A stretch of DNA of 64,000 nt, taken from Eggerthella sinensis. GTDB lineage: Bacteria; Actinomycetota; Coriobacteriia; Coriobacteriales; Eggerthellaceae. Within the stretch, counting starts at the first letter, position 1, and each line of letters opens with the position of its first letter. The translations under genes were made by a program, and so were the position numbers. Under the pieces are notes generated by a model. It was not told the origin of the DNA and did not search any database. It saw only the letters and a list, made by a program, of their open reading frames with translations. The stretch covers positions 124,001-188,000 of the forward strand of contig NZ_PPTT01000004.1 of assembly GCF_003339815.1 (NCBI RefSeq). Direction: 5' to 3'. Of this stretch, positions 7,966-50,688 are shown piece after piece.

Positions 7966-9501
7966 CTACAGGGCGGCGGCGTTGCGGCCCGCCTTGCGGC
8001 CGAAGTGCGCGTTCGACGCCATGGCCGTGCCCGAGCCGGGGTAGAACGGTCCCACCCAGCCGCCCGTGCACAGGCCTGCGGCGAACAGGTGGGGGATGGC
8101 CTCGCCGCTCGGCCGCAGCACGCGCGATTCGAGGTCGATGCGCAAGCCGCCGCAGGGGCCCATGATTTCGGGGCGCATGCGGTTGGCGTAGTACATGGAG
8201 CCCTCGATGCGCTCGAACCCGCTGATGCGCCCATACGACGCATCCGTTTGCGTCGGCACCGCCGTGTCGTTCCAGAACTGCAGCGTGTTCGCCAGTCCGG
8301 CAGCGTCGACGCCGATGGCGGCCGCGAGTTCCTCGATGGACGGTGCGCTGATCACCGTGCCCGCCGCTACGGCGTCGCCGATGGTGTCGGCGTCCCAGGC
8401 GCGGCAGTTCTCCAAGTTGCTCTCGGCCCACACGGCGTAGCAGGGGTGCCCGGTCGATTGTTCCATCTGGAACTGCATGCGCGTCTTGTAGGCGTAATGC
8501 GCATCCTCGCACACGTAGCGCTGTCCGGCCTTGTTGACGAAAATGAGGCCCCATACGTCCTTGCCGGACGTGAGCTTCAGGTCGAGGATGGCGTCCATGC
8601 CGCTGCCCAGGTTGCGGATGTCGGCGCCGATCTCCATGCCCATGCGGATGCCGTCGCCCGTATTCGTGGGCACGCTCAGGCAATCGGCCAGCTCCATGGC
8701 CCATACCTGCTGCGGGCAGAACTGTCGCGCCATATCCGTGTTGTGATCGATATTGCTCGTGGCAATCACCACGCCGCGGTTCGCCTTCACGGCGACGGTG
8801 CCCTTCTTCGTGTCGGCTTCGACGCCCACCACGGCACCTTCCGCATCGACGATGAGCCTTGTGACCTCCGAGTTCGTCTCGATCGCGGCGCCGTTCGCCT
8901 CGGCCTTCGCCTTCATCGCGGCAATGAGGCCCGCGCCCTGCCCGTCGGGTCGATGGATGCGCACGGCGTAGTACTCGTCGGCGTAGGGCACGTGCGACTG
9001 CCCCGAGAAGTCGCCGATGGTGATGCCGAGGTCTTCGACGTACCAGCGGATGACCTCGGGGCAGCCGTACGCCAAATCCTTGACGAGCTCTTCGTCCACC
9101 CAGCCTTCGCCGAGCGCCTTGTACCACTGGAAGTGACGCTCGGGCGTGTCGTCCTGGTACGCGGTGAACTCTTTTTGATAGCTCGTGCCCGCCGCCTGCG
9201 TGATGCCGGCCGACAGCGCCGTGGTGCCGCCGATCACGCTGCCCTTTTCCAGCACGAGCGTATCGGCTCCGGCGCCGCTTGCCTCGATGGCGGCCGACAG
9301 CCCCGACCCGCCGCTGCCGATGACCACGACGTCCACCTCGCGATCCCACGATTGCGGCACGCCGGACGCACCGCTGTTCTCCTTGCCTTCGGCTTTCGGC
9401 GCGCATCCGGCCATGCCGAATGCGGCGAGGCCGGCAGCGCTTGCCACGGCCCCCTTCAAAAAGTCGCGGCGTCCCCACTGCTTGCTGGTTGTGCTCTCCA
9501 T
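7966..9501 (-). CDS. Tat-exported FAD-dependent fumarate-reductase-type flavoprotein (pair A)
   Basis: 511 residues. The N-terminus carries a twin-arginine motif (GRRDFLKG) and a hydrophobic stretch ending MAGC, a plausible lipobox, so the mature protein should be an exported lipoprotein. A Rossmann FAD motif follows (VVVIGSGGSGLSAAIEA, about 58-74), then the flavocytochrome c / fumarate reductase fold to the C-terminus (PGSGTAMASNAHFGRKAG). There is no FMN-binding or haem domain, so electrons must come from partners not seen nearby. The ATG at 9501 is set by GGAAGGGGA 4 bases upstream. It is divergent from a membrane LuxR-type regulator at 9634, a pairing repeated twice more in this window. 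The electron acceptor is unknown. Confidence 0.88.
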   Translation of the reverse strand: MESTTSKQWGRRDFLKGAVASAAGLAAFGMAGCAPKAEGKENSGASGVPQSWDREVDVVVIGSGGSGLSAAIEASGAGADTLVLEKGSVIGGTTALSAGITQAAGTSYQKEFTAYQDDTPERHFQWYKALGEGWVDEELVKDLAYGCPEVIRWYVEDLGITIGDFSGQSHVPYADEYYAVRIHRPDGQGAGLIAAMKAKAEANGAAIETNSEVTRLIVDAEGAVVGVEADTKKGTVAVKANRGVVIATSNIDHNTDMARQFCPQQVWAMELADCLSVPTNTGDGIRMGMEIGADIRNLGSGMDAILDLKLTSGKDVWGLIFVNKAGQRYVCEDAHYAYKTRMQFQMEQSTGHPCYAVWAESNLENCRAWDADTIGDAVAAGTVISAPSIEELAAAIGVDAAGLANTLQFWNDTAVPTQTDASYGRISGFERIEGSMYYANRMRPEIMGPCGGLRIDLESRVLRPSGEAIPHLFAAGLCTGGWVGPFYPGSGTAMASNAHFGRKAGRNAAAL

Positions 9502-9614
9502 GATGTCCCCTTCCGTATTCGGTTCTCCTGATCCCGGGCCGTCGTCGGAGGGAGGGTGCGCGGCGACGGCGCCGGGGTTGAGGACACGGTACCCGCGGTT
9601 CCGAGCGCACGGAT

Positions 9615-9634
9615 GTTTAAACGTGTTTAAACGT
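9615..9634. promoter_or_regulatory. Tandem palindromic operator candidate, GTTTAAACGT twice
   Basis: A 10-base unit GTTTAAACGT occurs twice head to tail (9615-9624, 9625-9634), each containing the palindrome GTTTAAAC. One helical turn separates the copies, so a dimeric regulator could bind both on the same face. It lies in the 132-base gap between the divergent flavoprotein and the LuxR-type gene and is strikingly AT-rich for this DNA. Confidence 0.55.
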
Positions 9635-11109
9635 TGTTCGGACTGCTTAAAACCGGTATCATCCACCGCAGCGCCGGGGGATCGGCAGCGGGGGAAGTCG
9701 GGGGGTCGATCGGGCTGGACACGCAACTCAACAGGCTGTTCTCCTTTCTCAGGGAGAACGCGCTCATCTTCTACGCGGGCATCGGCATGGGGCTGTACCG
9801 CTGCGCCCATGAATGGCCCCTGTGGTTCAACGCCGCAGTGGCGCACGTGGGCGTGGGGCCGTTGTTCGAGGGCGGCTTCTTCTTCCTGCTCGTCGACATG
9901 GGCAAGGTGGCAGGGCTTGTGGCCTACCTTGCGTTGTGCTACGGCTTCGACGCGCACCGCCGTAGCGGGTTCCTCCTCGCCCTGCCGAGCGCCCTCATCG
10001 TGGCAGGGTGTCTCGTGCCGCTGCTCGTGGTGCTCGGCATCGATCCGGGGCCGAGGGTTGTCGTGGCGAGCCTCGTGCTCATCGGGGGTGGGGCGGGCAT
10101 GCTGTTCGCGCAGTGGATCGAATTCTGCGGCTATCTGCCGCCCGTCAAGGTGATTCAAGTGTTCGCCGTATCCTTCGCCGTGCGTTTCGTGGTGTTGCCT
10201 CTCGTCACGGGCGTGGACGCGCTGTCGAGCACGCTGCTCGTCATGGCGCTTGCGGGCACATCGTTCGTGCAGGTGGCGTTCTGCTTCGACAAGGTGCCCA
10301 GTTTGGGCGCCAGCCCGCGCGTGGCGACGGGCGCGGGCTCGCTGTCGGGTTTCGGCACGCTCTTCCTGTTCGTGTGCGTGTTCGCGTTTGCCTACGGGTT
10401 ATGCGGCAGCGCCACGTCGCTGTCCCATTCGGCCTCCGAAACAGGGTGGGGCACGGTGCTGCCGTCCGTCGTGGTGCTTGTGCTGGCGTTCGAGATGGGC
10501 GACCGCTTCGACCGCACCATCCTGTACGCCATCGCGCTGCCGCTCATGACGGCGGGACTGATCGGCGTGGAGTTCCTCGGCGTGTCCCCTTCGCTTTCGC
10601 AGGTGCTCGTCAGCGCCGCGTACTCGACGTTCGACCTGCTCGTGTACACGCTCGTGTGCTCAAGCGCCTATCAGAACCGCACGTCGGCCATGCTGCCCGG
10701 CTCCTGCGTGCGCGTTTTCGCGCTCGTGGCCGCCGATGCTGCCATCGTGCTCATGCGCCTCGTGCCGGCGCTCAACAGCGGCGTCGTGGTGACGATCACC
10801 ATCTTCGCCGCGGTGGGGGCGGGCATCGTGGTGTTCGCCCCCCGGTTGGGCGACCGTCGCGCCTACGCGTCGTTCCAGCCTCAGGAACGCACCTCGGAGC
10901 GCGAGCGGCTTGGAGCCGTGGCGACGGCGAAGGGCCTCTCGCAGCGCGAGACGACGGTGTTCCACCTGCTTGTGGAAGGCAAGACCGCAACCGAGATCAG
11001 CGAGGAGCTGTTCATTTCGAACGGTGCCGTGCGCGCCCATTGCAGCCGTATCTACGACAAGTTCGGGGTTCATTCCCGCAAGGACTTCGACGCCCTCCTC
11101 AGGAGGTAG
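9634..11109 (+). CDS. Membrane-embedded LuxR-family regulator (pair A)
   Basis: 491 residues: about twelve hydrophobic helices (residues ~45-420), then a C-terminal LuxR/GerE helix-turn-helix (LSQRETTVFHLLVEGKTATE, then EELFISNGAVRAHCSRIYDKF). This architecture, a polytopic sensor fused directly to a DNA-binding domain, is abundant in Eggerthellaceae. It is divergent from the flavoprotein at 7966-9501 and probably controls it in response to a membrane-permeant or extracytoplasmic compound (inference). The start is uncertain: the TTG at 9634 overlaps the tandem repeat and has no ribosome-binding site. An in-frame CTG at 9715 behind a G-rich stretch is an alternative. It ends 2 bases from the convergent regulator gene at 11112. 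Confidence 0.85.
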   Translation: MFGLLKTGIIHRSAGGSAAGEVGGSIGLDTQLNRLFSFLRENALIFYAGIGMGLYRCAHEWPLWFNAAVAHVGVGPLFEGGFFFLLVDMGKVAGLVAYLALCYGFDAHRRSGFLLALPSALIVAGCLVPLLVVLGIDPGPRVVVASLVLIGGGAGMLFAQWIEFCGYLPPVKVIQVFAVSFAVRFVVLPLVTGVDALSSTLLVMALAGTSFVQVAFCFDKVPSLGASPRVATGAGSLSGFGTLFLFVCVFAFAYGLCGSATSLSHSASETGWGTVLPSVVVLVLAFEMGDRFDRTILYAIALPLMTAGLIGVEFLGVSPSLSQVLVSAAYSTFDLLVYTLVCSSAYQNRTSAMLPGSCVRVFALVAADAAIVLMRLVPALNSGVVVTITIFAAVGAGIVVFAPRLGDRRAYASFQPQERTSERERLGAVATAKGLSQRETTVFHLLVEGKTATEISEELFISNGAVRAHCSRIYDKFGVHSRKDFDALLRR

Positions 11110-11111
11110 GA

Positions 11112-12521
11112 TTACGCATCCGTTTGGCGGAGCGTGAGGTAGTCGAGCAGTTCGGTGCGGCTGTGGATGCCCATTTTCTGGTAGATGTGCTTGATGTGGG
11201 TTTGCACCGTGTAGGGCGAGATCACCATGCGCTTCGCGATGCCCTGGGCGGTAAACCCCTGTCCGAGCAGCTCGAGGATCTCGAACTCGCGCGCCGAGAG
11301 CTTGAACTCGTCGGCGATGGCGGCGGCGTGCCGCTCGAGCGCCGAGGGCTTGCGCGGGGCGGTCATGATCTCGTGGATGCTGCGCTGCTGGTCGTTCAGC
11401 AGCACCACGAGCAGCATGAGCGCGCACATGAACGCAAGGCAGATGTCGAGCACGGTCTGCTCGCTCAGCAGGCCGGCCGCTTCCAGGCCGTTGTGCAGCA
11501 CGTTTCCCACGAGCATGCCGGCGCAGATGAAGCCCTCGCTGTAGCCGAAGGCGGTGGACGAGGCCACGTAGCCCTTCACGATGAGCGCGACGAAGTACGT
11601 GGCCAACAGCACGTCGAGGGCCACCGACGAGGCCATGCTTGCGATGTAGGACAGCATGAGCGCCTCGCTGCCGCCCGCCAGATACAGGGCGATGCCGAAG
11701 GCCGCCAGCACGAGCATCCACGTGAGGATGCGTCCCGTGGGCATCTTCTCGTTGAACAGCAGCTTCGGCAGCGCCGCCACGATCATGAGCACGGCTCCCG
11801 CCGCCACGCCCAGCGCCATGGCGTCGAAGCCGATGGGCAGCTGCTCGAGGGGCACGATGGCCCACATGAACGTGCAGATGACGCACGTGAGGAACGCGAT
11901 CAGGCACACGCGCACGATGGCGTTGCGGCTTGTTTTCCGGCTGGCTTTCGGCAGCAGCGCCGGGTACGACGAGGTGTCAGCGCGTCGGCGCGCGATCGCG
12001 AGCAGCGCGCCCGAGGCGAGGGGCGTGAGGGCGACGTAGACGTTCGACAGCGCGCTCGGCATCAGCGACGTGAGCACGATGGACGCGAGCACCACCACGC
12101 CGAACCCGAACGCGATGCTCTCGGCGTCGCCGTTGCGGGTGGCGGCGTAATGGTCGCCCCACAGATGGAAGAGGAAGGCCGAGGAGACGCCGCACACCAC
12201 CGCCGCGCCGTAGTAGAGCGCAAGGGACGGCACGAGCCGCTCCGTGAGCTCGATGCCCACCGTGCCTGCGACGGTGGCAAGCGGCACGACGAAACGCAGC
12301 CATCCGAGCGACGACAGCCGGCGCGTCTTGAGCAGCCAGGGGAGGACGAAGTGCACGAGCGCCGCCGAGCCCAGCACGACGAGCCACGACCAGTTTTCGC
12401 CGGGCGGCACCACCGCGGTGCCGGTATAGATGTTGGGCACGAACCACAGGCAGTAGCACCAGGCCCAGAAGAAGCCGAGTCCGCACGATGCGGCCGTGAG
12501 AAGGGATCGCCGTTGCGCCAT
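11112..12521 (-). CDS. Membrane-embedded LuxR-family regulator (pair B)
   Basis: 469 residues with about twelve membrane helices, then a C-terminal LuxR-type helix-turn-helix (LSAREFEILELLGQGFTAQG, AKRMVISPYTVQTHIKHIYQKM). The domain order is the same as in the regulator at 9634, but the two proteins differ along their length, so they are paralogues and not a recent duplication. The ATG at 12521 is preceded by AAAGG about 13 bases upstream, and a TATACT hexamer lies at 12562-12567 on the same strand. It is divergent from a Tat flavoprotein at 12741, its likely target. Confidence 0.86.
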   Translation of the reverse strand: MAQRRSLLTAASCGLGFFWAWCYCLWFVPNIYTGTAVVPPGENWSWLVVLGSAALVHFVLPWLLKTRRLSSLGWLRFVVPLATVAGTVGIELTERLVPSLALYYGAAVVCGVSSAFLFHLWGDHYAATRNGDAESIAFGFGVVVLASIVLTSLMPSALSNVYVALTPLASGALLAIARRRADTSSYPALLPKASRKTSRNAIVRVCLIAFLTCVICTFMWAIVPLEQLPIGFDAMALGVAAGAVLMIVAALPKLLFNEKMPTGRILTWMLVLAAFGIALYLAGGSEALMLSYIASMASSVALDVLLATYFVALIVKGYVASSTAFGYSEGFICAGMLVGNVLHNGLEAAGLLSEQTVLDICLAFMCALMLLVVLLNDQQRSIHEIMTAPRKPSALERHAAAIADEFKLSAREFEILELLGQGFTAQGIAKRMVISPYTVQTHIKHIYQKMGIHSRTELLDYLTLRQTDA

Positions 12522-12561
12522 CGGGTGGGCTGCCTTTCGGGGTGGGCGTGGGTTTTCGTCA

Positions 12562-12567
12562 AGTATA
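12562..12567 (-). promoter_or_regulatory. -10 element for the pair B LuxR regulator
   Basis: TATACT on the minus strand lies 40 bases before the ATG at 12521. The -35 position (ACCGGA) is poor, so the promoter may need an activator. Confidence 0.4.
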
Positions 12568-12606
12568 GCCGCGGGCGCGGCCGCTCCGGTGAATCCGTTG
12601 CCGGAC

Positions 12607-12633
12607 GGCATACCTAAAAACGAGGTATATGCC
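12607..12633. promoter_or_regulatory. Inverted repeat between divergent LuxR and flavoprotein genes
   Basis: GGCATACCT (12607-12615) and AGGTATATGCC (12623-12633) form an imperfect inverted repeat with a 7-base AT-rich centre, in the 219-base divergent intergenic region. The position suits a regulator-binding site for one or both genes. No protein has been matched to it. Confidence 0.45.
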
Positions 12634-12740
12634 GCGTACCCGGGCGCAAGGGATGTTCGCCGGCGCGCGCGTCGTCCAAAATGAGCGCCTCGCAGCGCGC
12701 CGGAGGGAGGCGCGCGTTACCCTGAGGGAGGGTGGTTACT

Positions 12741-14177
12741 ATGAGTTCCACCATGCATTTGACGCGTCGCTCGTTCGTCGGGCTTGCGGCGACGGCAGGC
12801 GTTGCGGCCATGGCGGGCGGCCTGCTGAGCGCCTGCACGCAGCAGGAGGCCGAACGCGCGGCGAAGAACGTCGTGGAGACCGATTTCGTCATCGTCGGCG
12901 GCGGCATCGGCGGTCTCGGCGCGGCGATTCGCGCCGGCGAAACGGGCAAGCGCTGCGTCGTGCTCGAGAAGGAAGCCGCGTTGGGCGGCGACTCCGCGCT
13001 GAGCTCCGGCACCATCCACGCGCCCGGCACGAAGCTGCAGGACGCGCAGGGGTACGGCGGCGATACCGTGGACGCTTACATCGACTACATGCGTCTGCCG
13101 GATGCGCGCTACGAGCACCCCGGCGAGCCGCTCTGCCGCGCGATGTACGCGGGCGCCGTCGCGATGGTGGACGACCTCAACGCGCAGGGGCTCGGTTTCG
13201 TGCCCCTCGAAGACTGGGACCCGCGTGCCCATAACGTCGAAGGGGCGGGCGGCGCGCTCGTGGCCTTCGTCAAACAGCAGGCGGTGGAGGCCGGTGCCGA
13301 GATCCGTCTCAAGACGAAGGCCGAGCAGCTCGTCGTGGAGGACGGGCGCGTCGTGGGCGTGCTCGACGCGGCGGGCACGCTGTACCGTGCGCCTGCGGTC
13401 ATCCTCGCGACGGGCGGATTCACCAACAATCCCGCCATGGTGCAGCAGTACGTGCCCGAGTACGCGGACGTGCGCGTCATCTCGAGCGCAGGTGCCGAAG
13501 GCGAGGGGCTCGTCATGGCGCAGGAGGCGGGTGCGGGCGCGGTTGCGCTCGATGCCGGCGAGCACACATACTTCGTGAGCACGGAGAGCATGACGGATAT
13601 GTCGCTGCCGCCCTCGAGCGCGCCGGGCATCGTCGTGAACATCGAGGGCGATCGCTTCCACGCCGAGGACGCGCATTACGACACGGCGGGAAAGCTGGGC
13701 ATGAAGCAGCCCGAGCATCGCGGCTACTACGTGTTCGACGAGGGCGTGCGCGCCGAATACGACCTGTTCGAGGACTACTTCGCCGAGGGCATCGTCATCG
13801 GCGGAGCGCCGCTCGACGAGCTGGCCGAAACCATCGGCGCGCCGAACCTGCCGGCCACCGTCGCCCATTACAACGAGATGATGGCCACGGGCGTCGACGA
13901 GGACTTCGGACGCGAGACGTTCCTCGCGCCGCTCGAGGGGCCCACGTACTACGCGCTCAGCATCGAGCCGTGCATCTACTATTCCTACGGCGGCCTCGAC
14001 ATCGACGAGTGCGCGCACGTGCTTGACGAGAGCGGCGCGCCCATTCCCGGACTGTTCGCCTGCGGCGAGGTGTGCGCATCATCGGAGGTGCGCGAGGGGC
14101 TGCTGTACACGTCGGGCTTGAGCCAGGGCTACGTGTTCGGCCAGATCGCCGTGGATGCGGCTACCGAGGAGGCGTAA
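12741..14177 (+). CDS. Tat-exported FAD-dependent fumarate-reductase-type flavoprotein (pair B)
   Basis: 478 residues. The signal has a twin-arginine TRRSFVG, a short Ala-rich core and the lipobox LSAC, so export by Tat and lipid anchoring are likely. The FAD-binding motif is DFVIVGGGIGGLGAAIRAGE at about 53-72. The C-terminal half has the substrate-domain pattern ending CGEVCASSEVREGLLYTSG and GLSQGYVFGQIA. It is shorter than pair A and lacks haem or FMN domains. GAGGGAGGGTGG lies 8 bases before the ATG at 12741; a GTG at 12732 in frame falls inside that site and is rejected. A terminator follows at 14186. The substrate is unknown. Confidence 0.87.
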   Translation: MSSTMHLTRRSFVGLAATAGVAAMAGGLLSACTQQEAERAAKNVVETDFVIVGGGIGGLGAAIRAGETGKRCVVLEKEAALGGDSALSSGTIHAPGTKLQDAQGYGGDTVDAYIDYMRLPDARYEHPGEPLCRAMYAGAVAMVDDLNAQGLGFVPLEDWDPRAHNVEGAGGALVAFVKQQAVEAGAEIRLKTKAEQLVVEDGRVVGVLDAAGTLYRAPAVILATGGFTNNPAMVQQYVPEYADVRVISSAGAEGEGLVMAQEAGAGAVALDAGEHTYFVSTESMTDMSLPPSSAPGIVVNIEGDRFHAEDAHYDTAGKLGMKQPEHRGYYVFDEGVRAEYDLFEDYFAEGIVIGGAPLDELAETIGAPNLPATVAHYNEMMATGVDEDFGRETFLAPLEGPTYYALSIEPCIYYSYGGLDIDECAHVLDESGAPIPGLFACGEVCASSEVREGLLYTSGLSQGYVFGQIAVDAATEEA

Positions 14178-47075: not shown

Positions 47076-48497
47076 TCACGTTCTGCTTTTGATAAGGCTG
47101 AGCAGCTCGTCTTTTTTGTGCACGTCGAGTTTTTGGTAGACGTGCGCGATGTGGGCGCGGGCCGTGCCCTCCGAGATGACCAGCTCGTCTTTGATGAACG
47201 TGCGCGTGTATCCCTGGGCGAGCATCGCCATCACCTGCCGCTCCCGTGCCGACAGGCCGAACTCCTCCACGATATCGTCGTAGATGCGTTCCATGCGCTC
47301 GGCTTCCGACAGCGCCATCTCGTCGCGCAGCTCCGCCTCTTTGCGGGTGTACACGAGGCGGAAGATGCTGTAGATGGCGAACAGCACGGCGGTGTAGGCC
47401 ACGGCGACAGATGCGTACATGACGATCTGACCGTCGACGGCTCCCGACGGCATGTTCGTCGCGAAGCGGCCCATCGTCATGCCCACCGCCCACGCGATGG
47501 TGAGGGCGGCCTTCTCGGAAAAGCAGACCTCTACCTCGCTCATCCCGTAGCGCTCTTTCAAGTCGGACAGCTGAAACGAGGTGAGTACGATCCAGGACGT
47601 CCAGATGATGGGTGCCGCCACGCCGCCGGCCGCATCCATCCCCGAAGAGAGAAACGGAAGGAACAGCAGGCCGGCCACGATGAGCGGGAACACGGGGAGG
47701 GCGGTGTACAGACCGTCTTTCGAGAAGAAGCAGGCGAACAGCAGCCCGATGATGATGGCCATGCTCGCGATGATGAGCGCGTCGGACTGCCGCACCTCGA
47801 CGAGCATCATAAGGCTGCCGATGAGGCCCGAGAAGAAGCCGAACGCCGCGCGCGAGGCGTAAAATCCCCGGATGCTCCGGCGCTGGCCTTCGACCGGCGC
47901 GCGCATCTTGTTGGAGAACGTCACGCGTCCCGATAGCAGAACGAGAGCCGATGCGAGGTAGGCGACCTGGGTGAGGCGCGCCTGCGGGATTTGGACATGC
48001 ATGCCGAGCAGGCAGCAGTACAGAAACATCGTGCAGAGCACGGTGAGGATCACCGTCTGGCCGGCCGTGCGTTTGTCGAGCGATGCGAAGGCGAGGCCCC
48101 ACAACAGCATGAGTCCGGCCGTTTCGACGGCGCGAATGAAGGTCCATGCGAGATCGTAGGGCACCTGCACGGATTGGGGCACGAATCCGGCGAGAAAGGA
48201 CAGCACGAAGGAAAGCGCTCCGGCGGCGAGCGCGACAATCACGAGCGCTCGTTGGGTGCGTTTCGCGGCGAATCGCGAACGGGCCAACGTGGCGGCGCCG
48301 ACGAGGGCCGCCAGGCAAAGGAACAGCACGTACGTGGTGAGGCTGGGGTCGTAGGCGGGCGAGCCGACGCCCGCTTGGCCGCCGCCCTTCGGCAGCAGTT
48401 GCACGCCTGTCGAAGCCCAGAACAGCGAGGCTCCCATTACCAAAAAGCCGTTCACGTTGTTGCGAGCTTCGTTTGTCGGCATCTCCATCTGTCGCAC
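47076..48497 (-). CDS. Membrane-embedded LuxR-family regulator (pair C)
   Basis: 473 residues with about twelve membrane helices and a C-terminal LuxR-type helix-turn-helix (LSARERQVMAMLAQGYTRTF, KDELVISEGTARAHIAHVYQKL). It is the third protein of this architecture in the window and again divergent from a Tat flavoprotein (48679). GTG start at 48497 with GAGGGG 6 bases upstream; an in-frame ATG at 48488 (MEM) is an alternative. The sensed compound is unknown. Confidence 0.87.
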   Translation of the reverse strand: MRQMEMPTNEARNNVNGFLVMGASLFWASTGVQLLPKGGGQAGVGSPAYDPSLTTYVLFLCLAALVGAATLARSRFAAKRTQRALVIVALAAGALSFVLSFLAGFVPQSVQVPYDLAWTFIRAVETAGLMLLWGLAFASLDKRTAGQTVILTVLCTMFLYCCLLGMHVQIPQARLTQVAYLASALVLLSGRVTFSNKMRAPVEGQRRSIRGFYASRAAFGFFSGLIGSLMMLVEVRQSDALIIASMAIIIGLLFACFFSKDGLYTALPVFPLIVAGLLFLPFLSSGMDAAGGVAAPIIWTSWIVLTSFQLSDLKERYGMSEVEVCFSEKAALTIAWAVGMTMGRFATNMPSGAVDGQIVMYASVAVAYTAVLFAIYSIFRLVYTRKEAELRDEMALSEAERMERIYDDIVEEFGLSARERQVMAMLAQGYTRTFIKDELVISEGTARAHIAHVYQKLDVHKKDELLSLIKSRT

Positions 48498-48509
48498 CCC
48501 GTCCCCTCG

Positions 48510-48522
48510 ATATGCCTCATAT
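48510..48522. promoter_or_regulatory. Short inverted repeat between LuxR and flavoprotein (pair C)
   Basis: ATATG-CCT-CATAT, a perfect 5-bp dyad, lies 13 bases upstream of the LuxR-type start in the divergent intergenic region. It could be an operator. It is not similar to the 9615 or 12607 sites. Confidence 0.3.
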
Positions 48523-48678
48523 TCTACTGGAGCGGGGGTTATCCGCTATAAGTCTTTCGTCCTATTTCTCCGTATGGGGCCCGATTTAAGCGGTTCGTCC
48601 GATGCGGAGCGCTCCGATCCGTCGCATGCTGCAGGGGCGGCGAAGCGCCGCGGAAACGATCGAGGGAAGGGGATTGAC

Positions 48679-50688
48679 ATGGCTGCACATCGAAACGAAC
48701 GGGGCGTATCGCGTCGTCAGTTCTTGGGCGGTGCGGGCCTGTTGGCGGCGACGGGCGCATTCGGCGCGGCGGGCTTGAGCGGCTGCGCGGGCGGGTCGGC
48801 TTCGTCGGCAGGCTCGGCGGTAACGCTCGACTTCTCGCAGACGGTTGCTTGGGACGCTGAATACGACGTGGTGGTCGTTGGATGGGGCGGAGCCGGATCG
48901 GTGGCCGCCATCACCGCCGCCGAGAACGGCGCGCGCGTGTTGCTGACGGAGAAGGCTCCCTACGGCGACGAGGGCGGCAACACGCGCTACTGCGAGCAGT
49001 ACTTCCTCGTGCCGAAGACCTACGAGGACGGCGTGGCCTACTTCACCGCGCTCGCCGAAGGGTTCGATAGCGCCACCGACGAGATCATCGACTTCATGGC
49101 GAAGGGCTCCATGGACGTGAAGGATTGGTTGCTGTCCCACGGCGCCTCGTCCTTCGAGGTGAAGGGGGACGGCAAGGAAAACGTCGACAAGCCCGATTCC
49201 TCCGAGCTGCGCGATTGGGGCGCGAAGCTCGATGACGGGTCTATTCTCATCACTGAGTATCCCACCTGGCCCAACGGCGAGCAAAATAAAGATCGCATCC
49301 AGATCCAGACACAGGTGGATGCGCCGGATGAAGAGAAGAAGAAGTACTGGAACCTTCTGCGGCGCAACATCGTCGAGATGAAGGACCGAATCGACGTATG
49401 GTACGAGTCTCCGGCGGTCAAGCTCATCCAGGACCCGTTCTCCAAGGTCATCCTCGGCGTGCGCGTGTCGAAGAAGGGTTCCGAGGTGAACGTGCGCGCG
49501 AAGAACGGCGTGGTGCTGACGTGCGGAAGCTACGAGGCCAGCCCGCAGATGATGCAGGACCATGCCCAGATACTGAACGCCACGCCGTACGGCTCGCTGT
49601 ACAACACCGGCGACGGCATTCCGATGGCGCAGGAGGTGGGAGCCAGCCTGTGGCATATGCGCGCGCTTTCGGGCCCCGTCCCCTCGCCGAAGCGTCACAA
49701 CTCCGAGCGCGGCCTCATCGTGTCCACCACCGCGCTCACCCAACGCATCACGAAGGAGGGGAACTGCTTCAACGTGGGCGGCAACGGCAAGCGTTTCATG
49801 AAGGAGTCGGGCTATCACAAGCACGGTCACGTGAATGTGGGCGGCACGTACATGAACCAGCAGCTGCCCAGCACCATGTGGGCCATCATGGACGCAACGG
49901 CGCGCAACGGGTCCGGCGTGGTGGCTTACATGCACGAAGACGATTTCGAGCAGGCGGACACCATCGAGGAGCTCGCCGGCAAGATCGGCGTCGACGCCGC
50001 GGAGCTCGTCGCCACGGCGGAGGAGTACAATGCTGCCGCTGCAGCCGGCGTGGACGTGAAGTTCGACCGCCCGGCGACGACGCTCAAGCCCGTTGAGACG
50101 CCGCCCTTCTTCGCTGCGCGTTTGTGGCCATGCTTCATCAACACGCAGGCGGGGCCGCGCCGCAACACGCGTTGCGAAGTGCTCGACAACGACGGAGCGC
50201 CTATTCCGAACCTGTACAGTGCCGGCGAGCTCGGGTCGTTCTGGGCGGGCGTGTACGTGTGCGGCGGCAACATCTGCGAAACCGTCTACTCCGGCCGCGT
50301 GGCGGGAGCGAATGCGGCGGAGCCGAAGGAGGAACCGCAGGCAACCGAGCTTGCCGTCGTGTCGTCGGCGCCTGCGGCCCTCGGCAACGATCTGGACGAG
50401 TCCGAAGCATCGGTGGACGTGGAGCTTGGGCAGGACGAGTACCTGGGAACGGGGCAAGGGCTGCATGGCGAGATCGTTGCGAAGGTGAAGGTAGAGGATG
50501 GCAAGGTGGTTGCCGTAGACGTGGTCAAGCAGACCGAGACGCCGGATATCACCGAGAAGGTGTGGACGGATATGCCCGCCGCCATGGTTGCCTCGGGCGG
50601 CTCGGAAGTGGACACGGTGACGGGCGCCACCATCGCAAGCGAGGGCCTGATCGCCGCGGTGGAAGACGCCTTAGGTCAAGCTCGGTAG
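48679..50688 (+). CDS. Tat-exported flavoprotein with C-terminal FMN-binding domain (pair C)
   Basis: 669 residues. SRRQFLGG twin-arginine signal with lipobox LSGC; FAD-binding DVVVVGWGGAGSVAAITAAE at about 63-82; fumarate-reductase-like core; and an FMN_bind domain at about 595-665 ending DTVTGAT (645-651). That last motif is the ApbE flavinylation site, with Thr651 as the expected FMN attachment point. So this protein brings its own electron-input flavin, unlike pairs A and B. FMN_bind usually sits at the N-terminus in urocanate/fumarate reductases; here it is C-terminal. GGAAGGGGATTGAC precedes the ATG at 48679. The acceptor substrate is unknown. Confidence 0.9.
   Translation: MAAHRNERGVSRRQFLGGAGLLAATGAFGAAGLSGCAGGSASSAGSAVTLDFSQTVAWDAEYDVVVVGWGGAGSVAAITAAENGARVLLTEKAPYGDEGGNTRYCEQYFLVPKTYEDGVAYFTALAEGFDSATDEIIDFMAKGSMDVKDWLLSHGASSFEVKGDGKENVDKPDSSELRDWGAKLDDGSILITEYPTWPNGEQNKDRIQIQTQVDAPDEEKKKYWNLLRRNIVEMKDRIDVWYESPAVKLIQDPFSKVILGVRVSKKGSEVNVRAKNGVVLTCGSYEASPQMMQDHAQILNATPYGSLYNTGDGIPMAQEVGASLWHMRALSGPVPSPKRHNSERGLIVSTTALTQRITKEGNCFNVGGNGKRFMKESGYHKHGHVNVGGTYMNQQLPSTMWAIMDATARNGSGVVAYMHEDDFEQADTIEELAGKIGVDAAELVATAEEYNAAAAAGVDVKFDRPATTLKPVETPPFFAARLWPCFINTQAGPRRNTRCEVLDNDGAPIPNLYSAGELGSFWAGVYVCGGNICETVYSGRVAGANAAEPKEEPQATELAVVSSAPAALGNDLDESEASVDVELGQDEYLGTGQGLHGEIVAKVKVEDGKVVAVDVVKQTETPDITEKVWTDMPAAMVASGGSEVDTVTGATIASEGLIAAVEDALGQAR

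Follow-up and report, generated by a model that had tools for sequence, protein, structure and literature searches.

Two divergent pairs of an exported flavoprotein and a membrane LuxR regulator in Eggerthella sinensis as likely substrate-inducible cassettes

Two genes for exported flavoproteins (FlavA and FlavB) and two for membrane LuxR-type regulators (LuxRA and LuxRB) lie together in one region of the 64,000-nucleotide stretch of E. sinensis DNA that was analysed (the window), within contig C34 of a 4.01-Mb genome (G000). This locus raises the question of which genes form a unit, whether each regulator controls the flavoprotein beside it, and what kind of reaction the flavoproteins carry out. 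The initial annotation had described a modular, substrate-inducible respiration system in which each reductase has its own membrane sensor. We consider it likely that the locus consists of two independent substrate-inducible cassettes, each with its own activator, a cassette-specific operator and an exported flavin oxidoreductase. The features of the locus are as follows.

7966..9501, minus strand: FlavA, exported FAD_binding_2 flavoprotein of 511 aa with a Tat lipoprotein signal
7966..9501, minus strand: FlavA active site, EDAHY and FYPGSG, ketosteroid-dehydrogenase-like residues
9615..9634, no strand: putative operator A, GTTTAAACGTGTTTAAACGT, two palindromic octamers with a 10-bp period
9715..11109, plus strand: LuxRA, predicted 12-TM MFS-fold domain and C-terminal LuxR (GerE) HTH
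11110..11111, no strand: LuxRA/LuxRB gap, 2 bases separating convergent stop codons
11112..12521, minus strand: LuxRB, predicted 12-TM MFS-fold domain and C-terminal LuxR (GerE) HTH
12608..12628, no strand: putative operator B, GCATACCTAAAAACGAGGTAT, with an ATACC...GGTAT dyad
12741..14177, plus strand: FlavB, exported FAD_binding_2 flavoprotein of 478 aa with a Tat lipoprotein signal
12741..14177, plus strand: FlavB active site, Tyr at the Arg402 position and an LLYTSG motif

The ORF coordinates and strands gave the order FlavA (minus), LuxRA (plus), LuxRB (minus) and FlavB (plus). The LuxRA stop codon ends at 11109 and the LuxRB stop codon, read on the minus strand, begins at 11112, so that the divergent pairs and the 2-base separation of the LuxR genes were as first described in order, strands and outer coordinates. 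Orthologue comparisons led us to correct three start codons. The probable start of LuxRA is CTG 9715 rather than the called TTG 9634, from which the ORF is open; its orthologues have ATG or GTG at the codon matching CTG 9715. Similarly, LuxRB most likely starts at ATG 12521 and not at the called ATG 12611, to which its ORF is open, and FlavB at ATG 12741 and not at the called GTG 12732. The called starts of LuxRA and LuxRB are situated at or inside conserved intergenic blocks. All four genes were under purifying selection, with dN/dS values of 0.07-0.22 against orthologues (about 0.1 for FlavA).

Orthologues were surveyed in 140 genomes of the family, with close orthologues of FlavA defined by at least 84% identity. 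FlavA had close orthologues in four genomes and LuxRA adjoined them in all four, while LuxRB adjoined the FlavB orthologue in each of the three genomes that contained one. A scan of named genomes with FlavA matched only Raoultibacter timonensis. All these loci had the same neighbours on their two sides (a glyoxalase-like gene and DUF454/infC). The site was empty in four relatives (G054, G055, G066 and G021), contained only module A in G087, contained both modules in the A–B order of the window in G053, and contained them in the B–A order in G086, with each module keeping its original orientation. As a single site was found in empty, A-only, A–B and B–A states, we conclude that the unit is the divergent pair and not the back-to-back layout. 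The back-to-back placement of the two modules was thus not conserved among relatives, and with the order swapped in G086 and B missing from G087 it was rejected as a functional unit. Tandem duplication of one module was also rejected, as LuxRA and LuxRB could be aligned only over the approximately 70 aa of the HTH and FlavA and FlavB are 31–32% identical. These results add evidence for cassette gain or swapping. A 2026 preprint reported that most respiratory reductase families of E. lenta differ between lineages and that none was located on the mobile elements identified there (PMC13060105), a pattern that agrees with cassettes being gained and lost by a different route. In G053 the insertion site also carries an exported-looking OYE-type enzyme (L126:928-3342, minus strand; Oxidored_FMN and Pyr_redox_2) with a twin-arginine N-terminus, so that the site resembles a redox-gene hotspot.

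The initial annotation had proposed a genome-wide count of how often the two gene families are divergent neighbours. Among the 150 GerE genes and approximately 119 FAD_binding_2 genes of G000 there were 62 divergent pairs of a FAD_binding_2 gene and a membrane LuxR gene, an excess over the mean of 4.8 and the maximum of 12 obtained in 1000 trials in which LuxR positions were placed at random rather than gene order being shuffled. An ORF-based recount in the same genome yielded 60 divergent, 21 tandem and 11 convergent arrangements, with 27 unpaired. The back-to-back double layout occurred twice, at this locus and at C9:57.2-57.6 kb, with genes that are unrelated between the two; the second double module (G000:C9:53822-60776) has unrelated LuxR genes and two flavoproteins that are 40% identical. 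The window also contains a third divergent pair (47076-50688), consisting of a membrane LuxR-type gene (47076-48497, minus strand) and a Tat flavoprotein on the plus strand, whose ORF is open from 48457 and ends at 50688 with FMN_bind at the C-terminal end.

We aligned the intergenic regions of the two modules. A single block, CACGGATGTTTAAACGTGTTTAAACGTTG, was nearly unchanged in a four-genome alignment of intergenic region A, while its surroundings had diverged. When three mismatches were allowed, GTTTAAACGTGTTTAAACGT was found at one place in each module-A genome and was absent from the two searched genomes that lack module A. The conserved block of intergenic region B, GCATACCTAAAAnnnnGGTAT (three genomes), had a single occurrence in each of the three module-B genomes and none in three genomes lacking module B. 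The distances to the gene starts are 113 bp (FlavA) and 80 bp (LuxRA) for putative operator A, and 112 bp (FlavB) and 86 bp (LuxRB) for putative operator B. These two orthogonal footprints with matching geometry provide a direct, testable candidate operator for each regulator; against this reading, parts of the footprints could belong to the core promoter. A sigma-70 consensus promoter was looked for and not found, and TTGTTC/TATCAT is therefore a weak candidate for the LuxRA promoter. Of 56 divergent flavoproteins across the genome, 12 had a perfect 8-bp dyad in the upstream region, compared to 1.7 in shuffles, and all of these dyads were different; the enrichment over the upstream regions of other flavoproteins (4 of 50) was marginal (p = 0.047). 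A search for an operator word shared by all divergent pairs identified none, the enriched words being mostly ribosome-binding-site-like.

Both regulators matched GerE (PF00196; E 2.8e-15 for LuxRA and 2.6e-17 for LuxRB). AlphaFold2 models built from alignments of 65 and 60 sequences contained 12 long helices ahead of the HTH (pLDDT 88.5 and 89.1), compared to 10 and 8 helices by simple hydropathy; the modelled helices and the GerE matches agree with the earlier description of about twelve membrane helices fused to a LuxR HTH. Almost all top Foldseek matches of both models were MFS transporters (probability 1.00), with TM-scores of up to 0.72 on the target, and in the sequence search the two proteins matched GerE only, with no match to Pfam MFS_1. 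Near-invariant columns were almost all within the HTH. These models predict that both sensors have an MFS-transporter fold, with sequences unrelated outside the HTH. The closest family of LuxRB outside the module (at most about 37% identity) is present in approximately 40 genomes. In G077 a member of this family is transcribed divergently from genes for an MFS transporter and an alpha/beta hydrolase (L131:2509-6657), indicating that LuxRB-type regulators also adjoin non-redox genes.

FlavA and FlavB matched FAD_binding_2 with E values of 1e-53 and 1e-48. The twin-arginine lipoprotein signals noted at the outset were evident in both proteins (MESTTSKQWGRRDFLKG...MAGC in FlavA and MSSTMHLTRRSFVGL...LLSAC in FlavB), and the twin-arginine and lipobox motifs were kept in every orthologue examined. 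The active-site motifs were also kept in orthologues (EDAHY or EDSHY in FlavB). The initial annotation had assigned a reductase role through the flavocytochrome c / fumarate reductase family, and this assignment did not hold. In the alignment, Fcc3 residues Arg402, His504 and Arg544 were absent from FlavA and FlavB, which have Tyr, Met/Tyr and none/Leu at those columns; in FlavB, YY replaces the His pair and LLYTSG stands where Fcc3 has NRLGG. Both proteins scored below the 285.45-bit flavocytochrome c cut-off of TIGR01813 (203 and 226 bits). Catalytic Arg411 of urocanate reductase is likewise Tyr in FlavA and FlavB, and neither protein contains an FMN_bind match or the CxxCH motifs of a tetraheme domain. 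The active-site residues thus led us to reject an identity as fumarate or urocanate reductase.

The best solved relative of FlavA was 4at0, a 3-ketosteroid-delta4-(5alpha)-dehydrogenase. When FlavA was aligned with KSTD1 (4c3x), EDAHY aligned with ESLPY (Tyr318) and FYPGSG with FYPGPG (Tyr487 and Gly491), active-site residues in KSTD1 numbering; the N-terminal region with Tyr119 was outside the aligned part. FlavB has the ketosteroid residues in part, namely Tyr318 and an LLYTSG that resembles YASG of 4at0. FlavA scored 177.6, where a curated ketosteroid dehydrogenase family (NCBIfam) requires 789, and neither protein reached the cut-off of any curated family of such dehydrogenases. Ketosteroid-like residues on their own determine neither the substrate nor the direction of the reaction. 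Among the 119 FAD_binding_2 paralogues of G000, Arg402 and Arg544 were kept in 10 and a Tyr487-type residue was present in 91; labelling these paralogues 'fumarate reductase' is mostly misleading. Two gut enzymes provide parallels. BaiJ was annotated as a fumarate reductase and a 3-ketosteroid dehydrogenase before it was linked to bile-acid reduction (PMC9645264), and Cgr2 has neither the fumarate nor the urocanate residues and lacks most of the ketosteroid ones (PMC5953540). Because of these parallels and the tyrosine-type active-site residues, FlavA and FlavB are more likely to be exported enone- or steroid-type oxidoreductases than fumarate reductases.

Electron supply was considered for the whole paralogous group. 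Almost all of the FAD_binding_2 paralogues in G000 look Tat-exported (117 of 119); FMN_bind is present in about 13, and a multiheme ORF lies close to 12. Approximately 94 of the 119 are solo proteins, with neither FMN_bind nor an adjacent multiheme cytochrome. FlavA and FlavB also have no FMN_bind in cis and no adjacent multiheme cytochrome, and no electron-transfer partner is encoded near modules A and B. NapC/NirT was rejected as the donor, since no match was found anywhere in the genome. Of the proposed modular respiration system, the modules were supported as real units, while respiration was not supported, as heme, FMN_bind and an adjacent electron-transfer partner were all missing.

From the anatomy of the locus, the export signals, the fold, the operator conservation and the cassette behaviour, all taken from sequence or prediction, we propose the following mechanism. 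The 12-TM MFS-fold membrane protein would bind a small molecule and pass its ligand state to the C-terminal LuxR HTH, which would activate the divergent promoter region via the cassette-specific operator and so turn on the flavoprotein gene beside it, probably together with the regulator's own gene. Tat would export the flavoprotein, which would be lipoprotein-anchored and FAD-loaded and would draw electrons from a shared donor for a two-electron redox step, most likely one that saturates an enone or another C=C bond in a compound that is steroid-like or comes from plants or the host. Three results strengthened the link between sensor and target: the conserved operators specific to each module, the strict co-occurrence, and the excess of divergent pairs across the genome. 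Genetic work on homologues agrees with this link: of 83 LuxRs with 10–12 TM segments in E. lenta, 50 are near flavin enzymes, and three of this type (DadR, HcdR and CadR) are proven substrate-responsive activators of their dehydroxylase genes, as induction is abolished when these regulators are deleted (Dong et al. 2022; PMC9734109). The text of the same study calls the sensing mechanism of the 12-TM LuxRs unclear, gives no DNA site for them, and has no occurrence of 'MFS', 'major facilitator', 'inverted repeat' or 'palindrom' (PMC9734109).

Other readings of the regulators account less well for these observations. Operator position taken alone is compatible with LuxRA and LuxRB being ligand-released repressors rather than activators, but the loss of induction in the homologue deletions argues against this reading, which we regard as very unlikely. 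That the adjacency is passive, with the regulators controlling other genes, is highly improbable; HcdR is not directly beside hcdh in E. lenta (PMC9734109), but here each operator occurs once per genome, within its own intergenic region, and regulator and neighbouring flavoprotein strictly co-occur. It is also quite unlikely that LuxRA and LuxRB are transceptors whose MFS-fold domain has kept its transport of the compound, with signalling as a by-product. In favour of this, nearly all Foldseek matches are true transporters, but the sensor sequences are highly diverged without a Pfam MFS match, and with an enzyme that acts outside the cell, uptake is not needed.

The remaining alternative leaves regulation unchanged and concerns the enzymes, which would be exported detoxifying or oxidising enzymes (e.g. 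ketosteroid-type dehydrogenases) and not respiratory reductases. The nearest solved relative of FlavA, the residues it has in common with KSTD1, and the lack of heme, FMN_bind or an adjacent cytochrome are all consistent with this possibility. However, Cgr2, one exported flavin enzyme of this group that has been characterised, is a reductase (PMC5953540), and a dehydrogenase outside the cell would probably find no readily available acceptor in the anaerobic habitat. We therefore consider dehydrogenases rather unlikely and retain the proposal of inducible cassettes in which the flavoprotein most likely saturates a C=C bond.

A broader model is possible, and we put it forward tentatively. A transporter fold may have become a sensor that links membrane and DNA within one protein, and Eggerthella-type genomes may contain dozens of plug-in cassettes, each with an exported flavin enzyme, its own MFS-fold LuxR and a private operator, in which inducer specificity, DNA site and substrate co-evolve and most enzymes have a tyrosine-based ketosteroid-like active site rather than that of fumarate reductase. 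If this is general, promoter–sensor reporters could reveal the substrates of about 100 orphan exported flavin enzymes per genome, among whose substrates there may be drugs, steroids and dietary compounds. Most paralogues have the tyrosine-type active site, which argues against their annotation as fumarate reductases, and the MFS models of LuxRA and LuxRB suggest a position for the ligand. The idea that membrane LuxRs pair with flavin enzymes is already known, and modules A and B are further members and a good example. They add evidence for DNA sites specific to each regulator and for a transporter-like sensor fold, and private operators, the MFS-fold sensor and cassette swapping are additions worth testing.

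Comparison with known systems places the two modules as follows. FlavA and FlavB share the full-length FAD_binding_2 fold with flavocytochrome c3 fumarate reductase and urocanate reductase but lack Arg402/Arg411, Arg544, heme and FMN_bind. The same fold is found in the 3-ketosteroid dehydrogenases (4at0 and 4c3x), with which FlavA shares Tyr318, Tyr487 and Gly491 and FlavB the first Tyr, although these enzymes are distant in sequence and FlavA and FlavB are exported lipoproteins. The cgr locus of E. lenta likewise combines a Tat-exported FAD_binding_2 enzyme, also missing the fumarate reductase active-site residues, with a LuxR gene in the cluster; unlike FlavA and FlavB, which have no adjacent cytochrome, Cgr2 has the partner Cgr1 and Fe-S clusters (PMC5953540). 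The regulators share a predicted 12-TM fold with the MFS transporters SotB (6kki), OxlT (8hpj) and MelB (7l16) but are fused to a LuxR HTH and match no Pfam MFS model. The characterised 10–12-TM LuxRs DadR, HcdR and CadR control molybdenum enzymes, with operators and an MFS fold unreported there; they have in common with LuxRA and LuxRB a 12-TM N-terminal domain, a conserved C-terminal GerE HTH, strongly diverged TM domains and a position adjoining a redox enzyme (PMC9734109).
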